Source: Chromera velia
Lineage: Eukaryota; Sar; Chromeraceae
Reading direction: 5' to 3'
DNA: 30,000 bases
Assembly: GCA_018398765.1 (NCBI GenBank)
Contig: JAHBMJ010003549.1
Span: 42,712-72,711, forward strand
Part shown: positions 3,831 to 30,000 of the stretch, piece after piece
Position numbering within the stretch: position 1 is the stretch's first letter
Layout: every line of letters starts with the position of its first letter
Program-made: the position numbers and the translations under genes
The notes under the pieces: model-generated
Database searches by the model: none
Told to the model about the DNA's origin: nothing
Seen by the model: only the letters and a program-made list of their open reading frames with translations

Positions 3831-4440
3831 TAGTGAAATATTAAAAACAAAACTCCGCTTTATATCAAAAAGTCAACACTGAGTGAACACTCGACGAAAT
3901 CACAACTAAGCTGATATATATACTTATACCATAAGCTAGCTAAATACACTCTAAAATCTGCTCTGCAAGATTGAGTAATTTAGAGTAATTTAGCTTCGTA
4001 ACTAACTTTGATTGATTGATTGACTTTGTAATTTAAAGTAAAGAAATTAAAAACATAAATTGTACTTTTAGGTTAAACTTGGGATGTCGGTCGACTCTTA
4101 GATTCTAGAGTTGATTTCTAGTGAACAATAAAGAGTTATAGACGTTCACACTAATAGCGCTTATAAGTCTATCCATAAATTTTATAAAAGTCTTCCTTTA
4201 TCCTCCTTTAAACTACACTGGAACTATAGTGTGACACAATTCAAATTGTGACACAATATCCTATACACTAGTACCAGTAACACAAATAATTGTATCACAA
4301 TAGGTGTGATGAAATAGTTAGAGTAAGTTAGGTATGATGAAATTGTCAAGCAAAAATTGAACTTGAAGTGATCCTAGACTTTTAAAGTGACTTGAAGTCT
4401 AGTTTGAAGTCTTTAGAGTCATTGAAGATCAGACTCTCGA
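3831..4440. other. AT-rich intergenic block
   Basis: Composition shifts abruptly to AT-rich near 3830. The block holds short palindromes, for example CACAATT/AATTGTG around 4234-4249, and no coding frame. It ends where the ACTC array starts. Confidence 0.6.
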
Positions 4441-5173
4441 TCAGACTATTCTTCTACATTCACTCACTCACTCAGTTACTCGATCATTCACCCACTTATC
4501 TCATTCACTGCTAGAACTCACTCACTCATTTCACTCACCCACTCACCCTAGTACTCACCTCACTCACTTAATCTGACACCTCTAGCAATTACCTGACTCA
4601 CCCACTCATTCACTCACCTAGTCTCTCACTCATCCCAGTCACTCATATATTTACCTACATATTCACTCACTGTCACCTTACTCACTCACTCCTAGACTCA
4701 CTCACTCGACTCACTCACTCACTCACTCACTCACTTACCCACTCACTCAGTTACACTCAGTGACTCACCCGCTTACTCACAGTGACTCATTTACTCACTC
4801 ACTAGTGCTAGCACTAGTGAGTGCACTCACCCACTTATACTCACTCACTCACTCACTCAATCACTCACTCGATCACTCACTCACTAGCTCACTCACTTAC
4901 TCACTTACTCGCTCACTCACTCACTCATGTGTGCATGTTTGGAATCTCCGTGGTTTGCAACGTTCGGTTATGACGCTGCAAGCCTGCGGCCTCCCGATGC
5001 GTGTCAAGTCGCGTCAAAACACCGAAAACATTTTTTTCACACATAATTATGATTTAATTGAAGCAGTTACAAATTTCCTATCAATCAATCAATCAATCAT
5101 TGTGACATACAAAAAAAAAAAGGTTCTAGAAATTCTCATTGTGATACACTATATAGTTCCAGTGTACTTTAAA
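4207..5173. repeat. Inverted-repeat pair bracketing the ACTC array
   Basis: The segment 4207-4240 recurs in reverse complement at 5138-5173 with two extra bases and about three mismatches. An exact 14-mer, ACACTGGAACTATA, lies at its centre. The arms enclose about 900 bases that include the ACTC array. This could be an old MITE-like element with degraded ends; no convincing target duplication is visible, so the family is unknown. Confidence 0.4.
4450..4927. repeat. Degenerate (ACTC)n tetranucleotide array
   Basis: Nearly 480 bases consist of ACTC/CACT units with scattered point changes, becoming most regular at 4680-4925. Read on the minus strand it is (GAGT)n, that is, repeated GTGAGT. A perfect 28-bp palindrome sits inside at 4796-4823. 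Confidence 0.9.
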
Positions 5174-7796: not shown

Positions 7797-10700
7797 ATGA
7801 ACGCTTCCAGCCTGCAGCAGATGCAGGGGATGGAGGTCATCCGCAAGAGGGCAGAGCGGAGAACAGAGTTCTACAAAACCATGGTGAGTCCTTTGGTATC
7901 TGTGCAGCTAGTCTGTCAGTTGGTGAGGCGAGAGATAGGAGACGGCCAAAGCACATGGAGTAGACCGAATTCAGGATGTATTCGGAAGACGGGGGAAGTA
8001 CGTGCGGGAACCACACCTTTTCTTGCAAGAAGGGACTGCAGGATTCCAGTTTAAGAGATCTGTCCGGGACTGGTGCTGCATATATGCTCCCTTGAGTCTG
8101 ACTCTAATTCTTCATACGGGTAGAAAAGAGCTTTGGGATTCGCTCAGTCTGCCGGAGCATGCGTCCTTTCAGACGGTTCCCCTATCTTCTTTTTTTGATG
8201 AAGGGAAGAGGAGAGGTGAGGCGTGCATTTCCTCCTGGTATTCGAGAGCGTGCAGATTGTTCGTGATTTGTGCTCAGACTTTCATTTGAATTTCTTCGAA
8301 GACCTAGACGCATTCTTCTTCGTGGCACACGTTTCCCTGAAAGAATGAATGAATGTCCACTGGGTGTTTGCATGGTGACTTCATTGCTTAATGACACTCG
8401 TTTTCCTTTCAATCTGACAGGAATCTGATTGTTCCAGAGAACTTCTGGTGACTGGACAACAATGCCAGACAGTGGTCAACAGGAGAATGTACGATACTGT
8501 GGAGACCCGGCAACAATTGTGAGTGAGTAGGTGAGCGGGAAGAAAGGAAGTATCAAGTGGGTGGGTGGGAAGGGGCACTCTTCCTTTCTGAACACGCCCG
8601 AAAGGATTCTCGTGAGGGAGGTCCAATGCCGTCTCTCTCTGCCTCTCTGGCTTTTTCTCTCTCCTCTTCTCTTCTCTTCTCTTCTCCGCGGTCGTGCTTG
8701 TCGACCTGTTCAAACGCACACATGATCGTTATAGGCTTGATGGAACATGTTAATATGAAGGAGAAAGATCCCCACCACCCTGAGTTCAGGATGCCCTGTC
8801 ACGGCGACCCAGAGAACCTTGTTAACAAATACGCGCGTACAATTATTTTCATAAGAATTCTGTATGAAAGTAAATGCATGCACGAGTTCAGGATGCCCTG
8901 TCACGGCGACCCAGAGAACCTTGTTGACAAATACGACGTGCGGCTGGCCCTGTTGGATTCCTCAGAGTGGCAGCTGCACGTTGAGTCTCTGGGGGAAGGA
9001 GACGAGGAGGTGGGGGGGGGGTTGGATATCCATGATGATTTACGAGATGAGCAGGGGCACCGGGCGTCTCCTTCTGCTTCCTTTGAGGGACAGGCGAACA
9101 AAATGAAGGAAGATGAGCTGGGTGGTGTGCCGACTTTCCGTTGCGGGGACGGGAAGAGGACCAGAAGTGGAAGCAGACATCTTTCGAATGTACGTCAGTC
9201 GTTTAGCCGGCTCTCTCCTCTTTTCCTTCCTTTCCCTTCTCCCTCCCAACAGAATTCTGCCAAGCGATTCACGGCTTCCCCTCCTCCCCTTCCGCCCATC
9301 TGTGACTGTCCGTTTGTGATTATCTGGTTCTGTGTCTGGCTCTGTGTGCACACGTGCATGTGAGGGTGCGCGCGTATGTCAATGTATCCTTTCGTCTCTC
9401 TCTTCCTCTTTCTCTCGTTCTCTCCCCCCCGCCCCTCTATGTGTGAGTGTATGTGTATGTGTGTGTGCGCAGGAAGAAAAGGACATCGAAAGCCTAAGCA
9501 ACTACGAGAGCTTCAAATACCTCCTGGAGGCCAAAAAGTTTGGAGGTCGGTATGTCACCCCCTTGCCTTCCTTCGAAGACTCAAACAAACAAGTCCACGC
9601 AGGCACGATGGCAGGCAGGCAGGATGGCATTTCATGAACCCGCTCCCTTCCTACTCAGCTGGGCTGTCGCTGATCACGTCTAGACTTACACATGTGTACT
9701 TGGGTGAGAGAGTCGCTCCAAGAACAGGCTTGTCGACCCTCTTATCCAAGTACAGGCTTCCCAATCAATTTCTCTCAGTGAGAAACTTTGACAGGCAGGC
9801 ATGCATGGATGAATAGACGGATCCATGAATGAGAAAGAGAGCGTGAGGGGCTGAATAGACGACCAAATGCGAATGAACGCAGTGCCTGAGGACGTGCACT
9901 TGGAGTGGGTGCATGATCGGATTGTGTCTGTGATGGTGATGGCGGAGGAATCTTCGAAAATCGAGAGGGCGGCGGGGCTCCCTCCGGGACCTTCTGTGGC
10001 GTCTGCCCTCTGCAACAGGAAGTCCTACAGGGCACAGGACAAAGCAAAGTCAGTCAGTCAGTCGACACAAAGAAGCTAGCTAGGCGCTGAGTATCTCTAG
10101 CTCTCTCTGCGAGGGGAGGGGGTGCAGAGCCCGACTTGCATGATGGACATTTCATTGCCGTCTTCTCTTCTGTTCTCTTCCCTCCTCTGTCTCTTCTGTC
10201 TGGGTTCATTCATCCCTTGCAGGAACCTCCGTCAGATGCGGTTGCAGAAGGCGAGGGGAATGGAGGGACTCGGGGAGAGGGAGAAGGAGAGGGGTCTCGC
10301 AATGTTTGGGTTCGTCCGTAGCTAGGCGTGTCTTCGTGCTGGTTTCTCTCTCTGCTTTTTTTTTTTTTTGGCGTTGCTTTGGCCTGTTTTTGATTCCTTC
10401 ATCATTCCTTTGCTCCTTGAGGCTTTCTTTCCTTCTTCGTTTGGCGGCAAATTGGGGAGGAGGACTAAACACACAACAGACAGAAATGCGTTGATTCGAT
10501 CAGTGTTTTATCGAAGAAAGATCGGCTCGGCCTTTTTCGGACTCTCTGTAAATTTTCGTTTTGTTTGCGTCCTTCCTTCCTTCCTCCCTGCCTCGAGATG
10601 AATGTCTCCCCTTCTCCGCACCGTCTGTGTCTGTCGGCACGTGCATCCATGCATCCATGAATGCAGCGGGGGGGAAGCAGAGAGAATAGCGGCGTCTCTG

Positions 10701-11051
10701 GATTCCGAAATCCTCGGTCGGTCGGTCGGTCAAGAGGGGGATCATTATGTGGAAAGTGGTCACTGTGGCTGAATGACGAGTTTTCGCGTTCCCTCTCTCT
10801 CTCTCTCTCTCTCCGGGTGTGTCTGTCTGTGATTCTCTGTGTGGATGCGAAGGGATCATGCTTGCTTGTTGTTTTTCCGTGTTTGCAATTCTTTTGATGC
10901 TCTGATTGTCTGCTTGTGCCTGTTTTGACGGACGTGGAGTCTCTTCTGGCTTCCTTCTCTCTCTGCATATGTATGCAGCATGTGTGTGTGTGTGTGTGTG
11001 CGTGCGTGCGTGCGTGTGTGTGTGTGTGCGTGTGTGTGTGTGTGTGTGTGC

Positions 11052-11088
<37 letters not shown>

Positions 11089-11550
11089 GCAGCTCTGTTG
11101 GGTGATGACGAAGAAATGGGAGAGGGCGGTGATGAGTGGGAGGAGGATCTCGAGGGAGACGGGGAGGGAGAAGATGGGGAGGAGGAGGAGGACGGCATGG
11201 CCCCCGTCTCCCTGACGGCTCTTGAAGCACTGTGCTCTGCGAGGCGTGAGTCAGTCAATATACATGCATGCATGCCAACATGCTTGCAGCCCTTTCTGTG
11301 TTTGTGTGAGTGTGTGGAACTGCAATTGCATCGATTTGTTTTTGTTCCGCCACGTGTCTGTCAATGTGCCTGTCTGTGACGTGATACTGTGGAAGAGAAA
11401 GAAAAAGAAAATGACAATTCACCCAGGGGGTCTCTTTCTCCCTCTTGCCACCTCATCGGTCACTCCCTGTGTCTTTGGTGTTTCTCCGACCTCGTCCTTC
11501 TCTCTTTCTCCTCTCTTCTCATCTCCGGCTGTGCAGCCAGACAGGTGAAG

Positions 11551-11590
<40 letters not shown>

Positions 11591-14500
11591 CAAGTATACT
11601 CTTTCGTCGCTGTGTGTGCGTGTATGAGTGTTTGCAGCGGCAGCTGAGGTCTCTGACGTTTCTTTGGAGACCGCGGCTTCGGTCCTCTTCGGGATTCCCT
11701 CCTTTCTCTTGATGGAGAGGTCCGACGCTCTGCAGCAAGAGGTGGGTGTGCGGGTGTGTGCATTTTCGAAGGGAAAGGAAAGGACAGAGGAAATGGACGG
11801 AGTGGAAGGGTCTATTTCGATTCTGGCTTACCTCTGTTGCTGTTTTTCTGCATTGCTGCATGACGTGTCCCTGTTCTGTTCTTGTCATTGTAGTCTCTTC
11901 TCTGTGCCCCCGCCTGCAGATGGACCCACGGATCCTCCGCATGTTTCTACCATGCGTGTATTTTCATACAGAATTCTCGTGTATTTTCATACAGAAAAAA
12001 GAATTCTGTATGAAAATAAGCGCTGTGCCCCCGCCTGCAGATGGACCCACTGATCCTCCTCCGCATGTTTCTACCATGCATGAAGCGGTGCTTTCTTTGA
12101 TCACACTCTTCAGTGTTCATGCTGACCATCATCTGCCCCCCCCCCCTGCAGGTCGAGAGGGCACACGGGAAGTTTGTGAAGAGGTACCGAGGGAGGGAAC
12201 TGTTGAGAGCCGAAATTCCGCAATTTCGGGTTCTGAAGAGAAAAATGGAGGTACGCAGGAAGAGATGGGAAAGGTTCGAGATCTAAGTTGAAACATGGAA
12301 GGAAGCAAAATGGAGTCAACACATTATTTGGGATTGCCACAGGGCTCGTGTGAGGTAACGCATGCAGAGAGTTAGGCATTTCAGAGACATGTCCACAAAA
12401 GCAGAAGCCAACGCTTTGATGAGAGGAGAAATCCTTTCCGTCTCTTCGTGTGTTGATTCAAAAACATACACACCGCTCATCTTCTTGTCACCCCCGCCTG
12501 CCTGCCCCTCTGCTTGTCTACAGAGAGCTCGTCGCTCTGCTGACACGGAGACATTGAGGGAGGCTGAGCGAGAGGGTGGGCGTGCCGTGATGAAGCTCCT
12601 GCTCCCAAAGGGCAGAGAAGCCAAGTTGCTTGGTCTGGCTCAGGACGCTGTGGACGCCCTTGGGGGGGAAGGGAAAGCGTTCGTGTCGTCTTTGTGCTCC
12701 TCTCCGGGGGGAGGAGCGGGAGGTGGACGTTGGAAGGATAGAGACAGGTACATGGGAAGGGGGGGCGGTGAAGTCAAGCCAGTATTTGTTCGGTCAAGTA
12801 TTGGAATGTTTGGATAGATTTGGTTTGATTCGGGTTGAGAGTGGTTGTAGGATTCCCCTTCCTTCCTTCTCCTCGACATTGTTTGTTTGGGGGTGGACAG
12901 GTTTTGGTTATCTTCTTTTTTTTCCTTTCCTTACTGGTTGGGGCGTTTGTTCATGGCGGTTTTCTTTTTTTTTGTGGCCTGTTTGACTTTTGCCCTTTTA
13001 TCCCTCTCTCTTCCGTTCTTTCCCTTTTTCATTTTGAAGAAGCATTTGTATTTCCTGAAGGGAGGATTTTCGTCGTTTCGAGTTTCTGGGGCAACACGCT
13101 ACTTGTAGGTGTGAGGTGTGTTTCTGTGAGTAAGTCTGTTCGTGTTGTGATCGAATAGAGAAACGGAAAGAGGGCACCACCCTGCTGTCATCTTATGAAT
13201 GGAAGGAGGTGTGTGAGAGTGTCTGCAGGGGAAGTGGGAGGGAATCCTCAGGTTCTGATGGGGAGAGGGGAAGGGGAAGGGGGGGGAGAAGAGACACACC
13301 CGAAACTGGAGGGTCTTCTCGCTTTGGGTGAGTGTGGAATGAATCTATGTATCAAATGTCATGTGTGGATGGACTCTTGTCATCGTGGAACACCACCGTG
13401 TGCAGTCTCTTACACAGGGGAAAAGCTGGTCATGCGATTCGTTCTTGGTTTGTGTGATTTGTGTGACGTGACAGAAGGGCGGAGACTTTGATGCATCGGT
13501 AGGAACCGTCGGCGCATTTCTTTTTGCCTTTCATCCGTGAATCATCTTCTATTTCAGTTCATCCATTCACTTTAGCATTTTTTCTTTTCTCCATCTTTTC
13601 TCTTGATTCATTTGAGCTCAGCTCTCCGGCCCTGGCACCCCCCTCGTTCTTCTTGAGCTCCATATCTTCTTCCCCATTTGAATACGCTCGGATGTTGGAA
13701 GTTGAAGTTTCGCTTTGGAGATGATTGTGTTGTCCGCATGCAGGGGTGTGCGTCGAGTGGCGCTGGATGAATTGACGATCGGCACCACCTACTCCGGGGG
13801 GGCGTCCTCCCTGATGAGTGGGGCGACACCGTCGGGGTGGGGGGGGAAGCGGACAGGGGGTAAGGGAAGAGGGGGGCTCTGTGTGGGGTTGGATATCTTC
13901 GAGGAGTTCTACCCTGCAGGTGAGAATATATTTGCATGGATAAATATTCTCATTGGGTTCGGCTGGGACGTCTGGGAGGAATTGAATTTCTTCTACGGAA
14001 GGGAGATTGTCCTGAATGAATCCTGCCTCGTGTTTTCTCTCTCTCAGTTCCGACGTCGCCTTCTTCCCTCCAGTTCTTTTCGCCAGTATTTTCCTTACGG
14101 CATCTTTACAGGGAAGCTGCGACCAGTTATTAATTTTTGCTGTGTCCCCTCATCTGCTTCATTTCTTGCACGTACTGCAGCCGTCGCAGCATTTCGGGAT
14201 TTGGAGCCGTCAACGAAATTGGAAGAGGAAGAGGAGCGCTCCCGCAAGTAGGAAGGGAAAAGCTAGGGAGAGGTACCGGGCATGTATGTTTGGTGTTTAG
14301 GGACATGCACCTGCTTTTTTGATGTAGAGGGACGTTTTCTTCGATCTCTTTGAGAGGCCTCGGTTGGCGTATTTATTCGATCTTCCTCCTGCGTTCCTTC
14401 CTTTCTTCCTTCGCTCACTCCTTTCTTCCTTCGTTCCTTCATTCGTTCCTTCCTTCCTTTCTTCCTTCGTTTCTTCCTTCCTTCCTTTCTTCCTTCGTTT

Positions 14501-22953: not shown

Positions 22954-23435
22954 CATCTTGATTATGTTTTTTCAAGTGGCACTGAGGTTCAGGGAGGTTC
23001 ATGCATGCATGACAATATACTACTATTTGCAAACATTGCATGCATAGTCATTACAGACCTACTTGTAGGTTATTAATAATTTACTCAGAGTATGATGCAC
23101 TCTTATATACTTACATAACACTTGCAGTTCAAGCCTTGTAAAATACTAATAATATAATTAAATAAGAATTAATTATTAAACTTGGGCCACACAATATATA
23201 TGTAACGTTTGTTTGTTAAATTATAAAAGATGGTCTCGAAAATCCGAGTCTGCACTGGCAATGCATGACTGCCAATGAGGCCTAGTAGTAGAGTGAGGCA
23301 AAATTAAGGGCAGTCTAAAAAATTTTAGAATTTGAAGTTTAGTTCTAGATTTTGAATTTTTAGAATAAAAAAGTTTGGTTATTGCTAGGGTTATTGCTAA
23401 GGTACGTTATTGTAATGTTACTATAATTTTGGCTA

Positions 23436-23677
23436 GGCTCTGCACTCCATGAATAAAAAAAAAGAAAAAAAAGAGAGTTTCCAATCTTTTATTTTTTCTA
23501 TTTATTAACTGAAAAGCATATGGTTTTTAATGCAATTAACACCCTATGCAACCCTCTTGGAACACTTGAACAATTAACAGTTGCATGTTTGCTTATTGAA
23601 TGCCATAATAAATAAAAATAAAAAAAAAAAACTTTTTCTCTTCTTCTTTTTTTTTTTTTTATGTATAGTGCGGAGCC
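23436..23677. mobile_element. MITE-like element 1, TA target site
   Basis: The ends are TA-GGCTCTGCACT and AGTGCGGAGCC-TA, an inverted pair with one mismatch, followed by A/T-rich arms that stay complementary for about 80 bases. Length is 242 bp with no coding capacity. The TA flanks fit a Tc1/mariner-type non-autonomous element; superfamily is inferred from the TA duplication only. Confidence 0.65.
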
Positions 23678-23714
23678 TAAAATTTTTGTAACCAACTTAG
23701 TAACTCATGAATAG

Positions 23715-23740
23715 CATACTACTACTACTACTACTACTAT
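23715..23740. repeat. (ACT)n trinucleotide run
   Basis: About eight ACT units lie between the two MITE-like elements. Confidence 0.8.
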
Positions 23741-23967
23741 GTAACTAAGCATATAACTATAACTTAGTCAAATTTTAAGCTAAATGAGAGAGTTTCAGCC
23801 TCCAATTTAGCTCCAAAGGCTTCATACGGTCTCTACCACTAGTATATCCAGTATTATATACCAATATAACTATGATAGTAATTACTAGCTAACTGATAGC
23901 GGTCCCAGCATTTTAAATTCAAATTAATGATTAAAAAAAAATTAAACACTTCATTAGAAAAATTTTA

Positions 23968-24452
23968 GGCGATGCACAGTGGTAAAAAAAAAAAAATAGA
24001 CCTTTCTAGATTTTTCTTTTTTTTCTTTTTTTCTACGAAAGATTTCCTAGAGTACCTCTAGGAGCACCTAAAGGAGCACCGAGAGACGCAGGCGAAGGGA
24101 AAAGGGGGCTCTCTTTTGTTCTATGTAAAGAGTGACAAGAAGGATGGATGTATGGATCATGGATGCAGACAGAAGAGCAGACAGAGGACAAGTTCTTTGA
24201 CTAGCTCTTTGACGATATCCGAGTCTAGGACGATATACATTTCGAAGCTCTAGTCGAAGCTAGTTTTGATCAATCTTTTTAAGCGTCTACCAAACTAAAA
24301 GTGAAACTGGGATCCTAGATATGATTCAAACTCTAGTTGAAGCTAGTCATTTAACCTTTATTTTTTTTTATATATACAATAAAATTTTAAATTAAAAAAA
24401 AAAAAGAATAGACGTTTTCAGATTTTTTTTTTTTTTACCACTGTGCGTCGCC
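23968..24452. mobile_element. MITE-like element 2, TA target site
   Basis: The ends are TA-GGCGATGCACAGTGGTA and TACCACTGTGCGTCGCC-TA, inverted with one mismatch over 17 bases, then poly(A)/poly(T) arms. Length is 485 bp with no long open frame. ATAGAC(C/G)TTT recurs inside both ends. The ends resemble those of element 1 (GGC...GCAC), so the two may be related families mobilised by the same transposase. Confidence 0.75.
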
Positions 24453-27165: not shown

Positions 27166-27518
27166 GCACTGTATAGAGCAGCAAACGAACGGATGTCTGT
27201 ATAATTGACAGTGGCGGATCGAGGCTGCCTGAGCCGTTGTTTCTTCCCTCGGTTGGTCGATTGAGCGCTTGATCTGTCAGCCAGGCAGGGACCGCTGACT
27301 GCGTTCGAGCTGTCTGTGAGCACTTTGAAAGTGTTGTGCAACACTCCCGTGTCCGTATATAATATATATCTTTCCGTTCAATCTCCTCTTCCTTCGTCCG
27401 TCTGAAGCCCACTATCTGTGTGTCGTCGGCTCGCAGTAAGCAGACACTAGAGCAAGGACACAATCGTCCTTTCTTCTCCGTATACGTGTGATTCTGATCA
27501 GAACATTCCCGGAGGAAA

Positions 27519-30000
27519 ATGGTATTGGAACTGGATCACGTGATTGGCTGCAACGGCCAGTACTCCCAGACCGCCCTCTTTCACCCGGTACAGCCCCATA
27601 TCGTCATCTACGGCCTCGGTGCCGCGGTAGTTGTCGAAGATTCGAGAGTTCGGGACGCGAGGTGCGAGGGAGGGGAAGTCCCTGAGAGCGTTGCTCAGGA
27701 GTTCCTTCGGCACCATGACGCTCCTGTCTGCTCCCTGGCGGTGTCGGACGACGGTGCCTACATCGCCTCGGGGCAGGTCCGTTGGTCTGTTTGCGCGTGT
27801 ACACTTGTGCCGATCTCTCTCAGTCGGGCTCTCCAGGGAGGAGGGCTGTGCTTATTCGTGCAGATATCTCTGTATCTCTCTGCGTGTGTGCGTATACGTA
27901 CCCGTGTTCGTGTACGTATGTGTGTGTGTTTCCCTCTCAGTTGGGGTCTCCTGTGAAGAAGGGCGCTTCTGCCCTCGTCTGCGTGTGGAACTTCGCGACC
28001 AAAGAGCTGGTGGCTTCGTTCTCTGGGCTCGGAGGGCAGGTCCTCTCTCTGGACATCTCGCCTGACGGAAGATTCGTGGCGGCATCCGGGGCCAATCAGG
28101 TCGGTGCATTTACTTTAAATCTGTATGAAAGTAAGGATTCTGTATGAAAGTAAAAGGACATCTCCCCTGACGGAAGATTCGTGGCGGCATCGGGGGCCAA
28201 TCAGGTCGGAAGGGAACGGAAGAGAAGGGTGCTCAAACTTGCAGCTGATTGCTCGTCTGGTTCTTTGAGAGACAGACGGTTTCCGACGCGATTTGATCCC
28301 GGAAGGCAGCGGTGTATTCACTTTTTTCGGTATCGTCGCTCCCAACAAACCATATTCGCTGCATGCCGCCAGGCCTGCTCGGATGTGTTGCTGCTTGTCT
28401 TGTCGTATCTTCTCTTGTCTTGCATCAACTTCATGCAGGTGACATACATTTGGGACACGAAGACAGCGGAAATCATTCTAGGCAAGCGCACTGAGCAGCC
28501 GTGCACACTGCTGCTGTGGGCGCCGATTTTGGAGGCGTTGGAGACGCGGGCAGATAGGGAGAAGACGGCCGTGAACACTGGGTGCAGACTGAGGACCTCA
28601 GCAGGATTCCAGTCGAATAGTCAGGAGCTCTTCGGGGGAAGAGGGTATCCGTCGTACTGTCTGGCTGCGTTCATCGGGTCCGAACTGTTCCTTCTGAATT
28701 TGGACTTCGAAATCGCAAACATGGCATTTCAGGTCGGTGGCATTTGCTCCCCCCTTCCCATTTGATTGGAGTCTTCTTCGTCTCTGTCGCCCTTCCTCTC
28801 TTCCCATCCCGTCCATCTCCTCGCCCTCTTGTCTGTCTGTAGACGTGCAAATTCGGCGCCATGCGCTCTTTCCTTCCCCGTCTCTCGTTCCCTTTCCCTC
28901 TCCCCCCCCCTCTCTCTGTGCATACACGTAGAGGTGACAGCTTCGCTCTCTCTCACTCACTCTGTGTGTTTGCACCTGCATGATCGGGAGAAATGCAGGT
29001 GAGGACCTCGAGAGGCCTAGTCCCGGGCAAGGGCCTCCACCGGAAACACCTGTGCGGTTCCTTCAGGGCCTACCCGTACCTTCTCTCGGGCACGGAGCAG
29101 TCTGAACTGTGCGTCTTCAGAGTTACCCTGGAACCTGCAGAGCTCACTGGACACCCTTCTCAGGTCTGTAGGTCGGTGGAGGGATACGTCGGCGTGCATG
29201 CGTCCTTTGTGGTCCTTCTGTCCGTCTGCCTGTCTGTTTGTCTGGTGTGCACATGGCAAGAAGGAGGGGAAAGAAAGACACCTGTGGTCTATCTTTCTGT
29301 CTCTCTGAAGAAAAAGGGGGAAAAAGAAAGGCTTGCCTGGTCTTCCTGTCTGTCTTACTTGTCTGTCTGTGTGAAAAGGAGGAGGGAGAAAGAAACAAAC
29401 ATGTGATCTGTCGGTCTGTCTGTGCCCCTCTTGTTCCTTGATCTCTGTTTCTTTCTTCCTTTTTGTCTGTTGTGTAGTATATCAAGAGAAAGAGGGAAAA
29501 AGAAAGAAAGAGAGAAACATAGTGTCCGTCTGCATGTCGGTCTGTTCCTTCCATGCAGGTGACTGCGGTCTTCCGTGCCGCCATCCCTGTGACAACAAAC
29601 GGGCTGACCTCGATGTGTCTGGCCGGCATTGTGCCGCCCTGTGAGTCGGGTGACAGCCCAGAACTGCAGGCGTATGTTGGGGGAGGGGACGGGTCCTTGC
29701 GACTGGTGGTGGGTCGGGACGCGTCATGGGAGGTTGTGGGGGTAGGAAGGACTGGAGGGGTGTGCGGGGTGGAGGGCGCGTTTGGAGGGGGAGGCAGAGA
29801 AGAGGGTGTGTGCGCGCTCCAGGGGTGTGTGGGTTCGTTGTGCCTGTCTGCACAGACGGAAGGGAAACCTCAGGAGATCCTGGCTTGCACGAGTGCGGGC
29901 CGAATGTTCCGCATTTTGCCTTTGAAGCAGGACGTGGGGGGGGGACCCTGCCCTGCCAGTGCAATGGCTGTGAATGTCTTCGCATACGCACACACAGGGA
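27519..30000 (+). CDS. CFAP52: CFAP52/WDR16-type ciliary WD-repeat protein, N-terminal part (3' end outside window)
   Basis: Exons 27519-27776, 27941-28099, 28439-28732, 28999-29163 and 29559-beyond 30000 join with all four introns in phase 0. The start MVLELDHVIGCNGQ and the first blade (FLRHHDAPVCSLAVSDDG, YIASGQ) match CFAP52 (LELDAVIGFNG; VSCLAIS...YIASGQ), and later blades follow (LVCVWNFATKELVASFSG; LSLDISPDGRFVAASGANQ; VTYIWDTKTAEIILG). CFAP52 is a structural protein of ciliary doublet microtubules, which implies a flagellated stage. Exon 5 is Gly-rich between blades. Exon 2 is followed by a duplicate of its last 49 bases plus donor inside the intron. The ATG chosen is the first in frame and aligns with the family N-terminus. 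Confidence 0.8.
28051..28209 (+). repeat. Palindromic mini-insert between two 54-bp copies of CFAP52 exon 2 end plus donor
   Basis: Copy A is 28051-28104 and copy B is 28156-28209, with two mismatches. Each holds the exon end GRFVAASGANQ and the donor CAG/gtcgg. The 51-bp insert 28105-28155 has CTGTATGAAAGTAA twice, preceded by TTTACTTT that pairs with the final AAAGTAAA. Reading on through copy A meets TGA, so copy B is intronic when donor A is used. Confidence 0.9.
29204..29550. repeat. Alternating TGTCTG / GAAAAAGG repeat in CFAP52 intron 4
   Basis: Pyrimidine-rich TGTCTGTC blocks alternate about four times with purine-rich GAAGAAAAAGG-type blocks, with an irregular period of about 80-110 bases. 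The blocks are roughly complementary to one another. Confidence 0.5.

Follow-up and report, generated by a model that had tools for sequence, protein, structure and literature searches.

Introduction

Introners, described from algae, dinoflagellates and Amoebophrya, are short non-autonomous inserts in genes; some of their families carry inverted repeats, and the duplications beside them are able to supply splice sites (PMC9860276, PMC7789003). The duplications measure 3–9 bp in introners (PMC9860276) and the direct repeats of Amoebophrya 3–5 nt (PMC7789003); for these papers, as for those cited below, the accessible portions of the text are meant. The present study deals with inserts found in a stretch of 30,000 nucleotides of Chromera velia DNA (contig JAHBMJ010003549.1, positions 42,712 to 72,711 of the forward strand; the window) and at many other places in the genome. 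Every insert combines pieces of one sequence of ~34 nt, TGCATTTAYTTTCATACAGAATTCTTTTTCAGGG, called X below, in an arrangement of its own, the pieces being read inward from one or both ends. Nearly all of the sampled inserts lie between direct duplications of the target. The insertion type is real, numerous and strange. The initial annotation of the window had proposed that one process acts repeatedly, placing a short hairpin-like insert and duplicating tens of bases of the target on its two sides; the sampled sites support this.

Results

Abundance and target duplications

An assembly of 177.8 Mb was searched, with the reversed motif as control. ATTCTGTATGAAARTAA was found at 1,970 places (997 + 973) with at most one mismatch, and the reversed control at 1. 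The longer end GCRTTTAYTTTCATACAGAATTC was found at 1,497 places (722 + 775) with at most two mismatches, and its control at 0. The material for closer analysis consisted of 60 loci of 3 kb, 20 regions of ~4–6.5 kb and the window (together 326,942 bases, overlaps included). It yielded 73 motif clusters once overlaps were removed, and it was not drawn at random but followed the order of contigs among the places listed first. A weaker motif search listed 28 places outside the clusters, 27 of them overlapping loci already counted; a further site with a 33-bp repeat came from it at L009:1301.

Flanking direct repeats were scored at the 68 sites with no more than three motif hits and at 4,000 random places, low-complexity alignments being removed. 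A score of at least 24 was reached at 65 of the 68 sites and at 167 random places (4.2%), and a score of at least 40 at 57 sites and 47 random places. Under a stricter complexity filter the counts were 52 of 68 and 75 of 4,000. With no complexity filter, 58 of the 73 clusters and 89 of 1,500 random places scored above 40, and none of the 73 exceeded the 99th percentile (183) of this null, which is inflated by microsatellites. The three sites below 24 are L060, a tandem array with a 47-bp repeat; L062, which by eye has a decayed repeat of ~12–16 nt; and L067, a paralogous copy of L071 (16 bp).

Lengths were taken from 64 sites, which are the 73 clusters minus the arrays L055, L063, L064:5277, L077 and L079, the sites L060, L062 and L027:1501, and the copy L067. 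The duplications have a median of 41 and a mean of 39.1 bp (standard deviation 12.3, range 12–68). A comparison of flanks along the lines that the initial annotation had suggested confirmed duplications at nearly all sampled copies, but their length is variable, with the fullest bin at 40–44, and the constant geometry near 54 bp that it had read from the window is not upheld. Duplication length is uncorrelated with insert length (r = −0.004). The two copies are identical in 16 of the 64 pairs, and the median identity is 0.953. Of 104 boundaries, 47% have a T as the first base beyond the duplication, with otherwise little sequence preference. No coding-frame constraint is visible in the length of insert plus duplication, since 22, 23 and 19 of the 64 sites leave remainders of 0, 1 and 2 on division by 3. 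Duplication and insert together form tandem arrays in L063 (period 103), L064 (120), L077 (74), L079 (77) and L060 (96), as expected of later unequal exchange.

In a scan for any duplication enclosing an insert, the X motif was present in 57 of 80 pairs, the loci having been preselected for X. In the same scan, four places (L076:3180, L027:467, L047:2327 and L064:3210) have duplications of 18–60 bp around inserts of 40–53 bp without the X core, perhaps made from other templates or by ordinary repair.

Anatomy of the inserts

Many insert ends, read inward from the target, start with TGCATTTA or TGCATGCATTTA and continue as YTTTCATACAGAATTCTTTTTCA(GGG). The point at which they leave X varies. 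Among 85 ends with the core, extension beyond TTTCATACAG halts anywhere from 0 to 15 bases, 15 being the limit of the script and reached by 2 ends (the end of CAGGG), and the sequence following CAGGG differs between ends by eye. Beyond GAATTCTTTT, the 28 continuations available from 24 sites take different courses: 4 pass into CAGG, 3 into CATACAG, and the rest into other sequence. X 7-mers cover 77% of insert bases on average.

The arrangements were compared in 59 inserts, the 64-site set minus the five two-copy arrays L012, L021, L028, L073:3001 and L080:3001. By a loose rule, both halves are present in 35 and one half in 23; by a strict rule, cores point in both directions in 26 and in one direction in 33. 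Two or more cores of the same direction occur in 21, among them two of the window sites (B and C below). Near full length, 5 of 1,711 pairs of inserts are alike. Stretches of at least 12 nt outside X occur in 17 of the 59, and the 136 pairs of these share no sequence (best local score 8, in what is a limited test).

The initial annotation had also supposed one conserved palindrome. A perfect 32-bp palindrome of the C type is present at 2 exact places genome-wide, and palindromes of the T type or of mixed type at 0. Exact counts thus rule out the perfect palindrome as the unit of insertion, with the reservation that sequencing or assembly may also have removed such palindromes; the arrangement varies by site, and many inserts are one-ended. 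Ten sites have identical duplications of at least 20 nt, and their inserts comprise five with repeated cores, three one-sided and two simple. Because irregular forms lie between identical duplications, the irregularity cannot be due to decay only and must be at least partly original. L067 and L071, 92.6% identical over 3.7 kb, hold the same irregular X insert, one base apart, and appear to be paralogous or allelic copies made after the insertion.

A variant of X, CCCTGAAAAAGAATTCTGTATGAAAATGA, with TGA for TAA, occurs exactly at six of the listed places (G000 C1137:10926, C1293:32288, C1716:7910, C3433:75926, C3464:52287 and C3774:47700), which might be the ends of a longer repeat or a source element.

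Junctions with the target

X starts with fewer of its own first bases where the target end already provides them. Over 42 ends, the start overlaps the target by 1.55 nt on average, against 0.84 nt for inserts with a fixed start simulated at these loci; when 42 simulated ends were drawn 5,000 times, 2 draws were as high. Similarly, X starts within one base of TTTA at 26% of ends, compared with 6.8% in the simulation (1 of 5,000 as high). The simulated inserts were used in place of a shuffle test, which is biased, as shared bases are absorbed by the repeat boundaries. The overlap fits priming by a short pairing at TGCA.

Splice-like motifs in the duplications

Splice sites were approached through motifs, not gene models, and the motifs were picked after these duplications had been viewed, so that all p-values are post hoc; the null was a set of matched random windows from a mixture of exons, introns and intergenic DNA, with the motifs sought on both strands. 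TGCAG is present in 22 of the 59 duplications, compared with 13.1% of random windows, and donor-like motifs in 14, compared with 4.6%. One or the other lies in 34 of the 59 duplications, compared with 17% of random windows (binomial p 2e-12, for motifs chosen post hoc). Of 22 donor-like matches, some overlapping at one site, 11 have only 5–6 intron bases within the duplication, and of 32 TGCAG matches, 13 end 5–11 bases from the duplication start. Judged by these motifs, many inserts look as if they stand at an exon edge. Insertion into exons followed by selection would give such a pattern, and direct guidance by splice sites may do so as well.

The three sites in the window

Window alignment places three inserts of 50, 67 and 51 bp, with flanking repeats of 52, 54/57 and 54 bp, exactly where the initial annotation had put them. 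At site A, the left target copy (8782–8833, + strand, 52 bp) starts with GAGTTCAG, a possible 3′ splice site. The insert (8834–8883, 50 bp) has a damaged left X and an intact right X (motif 8857–8873), and the right target copy (8884–8935, + strand) is 98% identical to the left. A match to DRY_EERY, an alternative splicing regulator, at 8893–8967 (22.7 bits, below the cut-off of 25) overlaps the right copy; from this weak match, the right copy may run on into an exon.

At site B, the left target copy (11902–11955, + strand, 54 bp) contains CTGCAG at 11914–11919, by its look the 3′ end of an intron. The insert (11956–12022, 67 bp) carries two X cores in one direction (11958–11974 and 11981–11997) and one in the opposite direction (12003–12019). 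The right target copy (12023–12079, + strand, 57 bp) is 93% identical, with a 3-bp indel.

At site C, the left target copy (28051–28104, + strand, 54 bp) holds a donor-like CAG/GTCGG with its GT at 28100. Two X cores of the same direction (28118–28134 and 28137–28153) and a truncated opposite X make up the insert (28105–28155, 51 bp), and the right target copy (28156–28209, + strand) is 96% identical to the left. A weak WD40-type match, below curated cut-offs, extends into the left copy as far as 28096. As the WD40 match enters the left copy at site C and the DRY_EERY match leaves the right copy at site A, a splice starting at the left donor or ending at the right acceptor could remove the insert together with one target copy.

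The repeat copies at the three sites differ by substitutions or by the 3-bp indel, and therefore do not represent a simple doubling in assembly. The window has 7 motif matches with at most 3 mismatches, where 0.17 are expected; one of the 7, at 5031 with 3 mismatches, has no comparable repeat (score 19). No known RNA family reaches its gathering score in the window. An A-T-rich cluster of inverted repeats at 23434–24446, with arm pairs of 43 and 47 nt that are 77% complementary, may be an unrelated repeat resembling a miniature inverted-repeat transposable element (MITE). Open frames at 27498–28104 with weak WD40 matches, below cut-off, presumably resemble a WD40 protein of cilia; if so, the host would seem to be flagellated.

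Discussion

The reading we tentatively prefer, while giving it somewhat less than an even chance, is a mobile insertion in which no element is copied from end to end; instead, staggered 3′ ends are extended on an RNA template and then annealed. Two nicks on opposite strands ~40 bp apart would expose 3′ ends. A reverse transcriptase would use these ends as primers, paired at TGCA with the 3′ terminus of a short RNA, approximately 5'-CCCUGAAAAAGAAUUCUGUAUGAAARUAAAUGCA-3'. The same RNA, or the ribonucleoprotein (RNP) that holds it, would serve the other end and occasionally one end again. The two extensions would be joined by annealing at GAATTC or at chance microhomology, and fill-in would make the duplication. 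In genes, the insertions that survive would mostly be those with a splice site in the duplication, where splicing can discard the insert and one target copy. The variable duplications, the individual arrangements, the one-sided and repeated cores, the irregularity between identical duplications and the overlap of starts with the target all fit such a process.

Several results speak against it. The two halves of an insert are not independent: there are 13 C/C, 8 T/T and 1 C/T by the strict rule, and 13 CC, 11 TT and 5 C/T mixed by a looser one. A template chosen at random for each end would give about half mixed, so that the inserts arise either through repeated use of one RNA or by insertion of an inverted repeat already complete, and it is mainly this dependence that keeps our confidence below one half. 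The age of subtypes was considered as a cause of the concordance and rejected, as mean duplication identity (CC 0.937, TT 0.969, T 0.939, C 0.936) reveals no clear waves. In addition, unmasked interiors score at least 14 in 56 of 1,326 pairs, compared with a shuffled mean of 0.05. We read this likeness as due to repeated X pieces; nevertheless, a degenerate common interior, to which some same-direction second cores (e.g. in L046, L049 and L056) could belong, could produce it too. The simulation of start overlap presumed a single fixed start. Finally, no template RNA, enzyme or source locus was found for X, the enzyme profiles searched being the four named next. Reverse transcriptase matches are abundant (150 scored of 1,759 candidates), and LINE-type (long interspersed nuclear element) endonuclease and GIY-YIG matches number 7 and 1; none of these is tied to X, and no telomerase RNA-binding domain exceeds the cut-off in the genome. 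A viral source was rejected as well, exact TTAYTTTCATACAGAATTC being found in 0 viral contigs.

Retrotransposition of a short RNA would explain most features of the inserts. A more specific proposal, doubtful but worth stating, is that a stable telomerase-like RNP with a template of ~34 nt gives both 3′ ends of staggered breaks in genes the same extension, preferring exons or exon edges, and produces a new insert and duplication each time with no element copied whole.

The alternative that survives best, though unlikely, is a MITE whose unseen transposase produces duplications of unusual and variable length, its interiors being scrambled by palindrome instability. The X ends that are inverted in 35 of 59 inserts under the loose rule, halves that agree in type and interiors alike beyond shuffles are what such an element would leave, and the bacterial IS1202 group offers a precedent with duplications of 16–28 bp (PMC10132070). 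Against a MITE, the duplications are not of fixed length (12–68 bp, standard deviation 12, over the 64 sites), and paired terminal inverted repeats are not general, both halves being present in 35 of 59 under the loose rule and cores in both directions in 26 of 59 under the strict one. One-sided inserts keep their duplications, irregular forms lie between identical ones, and the L067/L071 pair retains the same insert at 92.6% identity; the overlap of starts with the target also speaks against this origin. No long copy with X was seen among the 73 sampled clusters, in work that included no search aimed at transposase families.

It is quite unlikely that a resident LINE or SINE (short interspersed nuclear element) left the inserts as extremely short tails, placed by ordinary target-primed reverse transcription (TPRT) with twin or dual priming. 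The many reverse transcriptase matches and the LINE-type endonuclease matches would suit it, and for L1 a proposal of dual priming exists (PMC2837659). Duplications and truncations of variable extent, both expected of TPRT, are likewise observed. However, truncated copies should include long ones, whereas inserts in the 64 sites do not exceed 145 bp (the upper limit of the set) and no long element was seen among the 73 clusters. The end of CAGGG, where the script stops, is reached by only 2 of 85 ends, and what follows differs by eye. Moreover, none of the 150 listed reverse transcriptase matches, which are not exhaustive, lies near the six places of the TGA variant; the one that shares a contig with such a place is 55 kb from it.

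Host repair of breaks between adjacent nicks, in which polymerase-theta-like joining would take up some short, abundant piece of DNA or RNA and no mobile element would be involved, is very unlikely, for although microhomology and filler occur at the joints and a few similar duplications hold inserts lacking X, X is carried by 57 of 80 duplication-insert pairs (in loci preselected for it), and a single defined filler with a preferred start is atypical of random capture.

If RNA-templated extension is the true explanation, the inserts represent a class in which no element is copied whole, a short template being inherited while each insert is made afresh. The process would then be a source of exon-edge duplications able to feed intron change, and a natural parallel of paired prime editing. 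Under the alternatives too, small irregular inserts of this kind may escape ordinary repeat annotation.

The initial annotation held that no described family has these properties. This stands as far as the accessible portions of the literature searched on long or variable duplications go, which contain no match to a family of ~60-bp inserts with variable duplications of 12–68 bp, many at splice-like sites. Partial likenesses can be found nonetheless. Inverted pieces between target duplications, with microhomology at the target junctions, are reported for twin and dual priming of L1 (PMC2837659). Unlike L1, the X inserts have no poly(A) and no long element is seen; both pieces come from one sequence of ~34 nt, and X pieces are repeated. 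Penelope-like elements share inverted and partial tandem structures and palindromes at inverted junctions, but in the accessible text they have duplications of 8–10 bp or none and encode proteins of several hundred residues (PMC3846280), compared with one GIY-YIG match in this genome. The IS1202 group illustrates that long duplications (16–28 bp) are compatible with a DDE transposase, yet its members, as described, are full-length bacterial elements with a transposase gene (PMC10132070). Introners resemble the X inserts in being short, in lying in genes, in the inverted repeats of some families and in having target duplications that can supply splice sites; they differ in that their duplications are 3–9 bp as reported, whereas those of the X inserts are 12–68 bp, and the X inserts are alike through their X pieces only.

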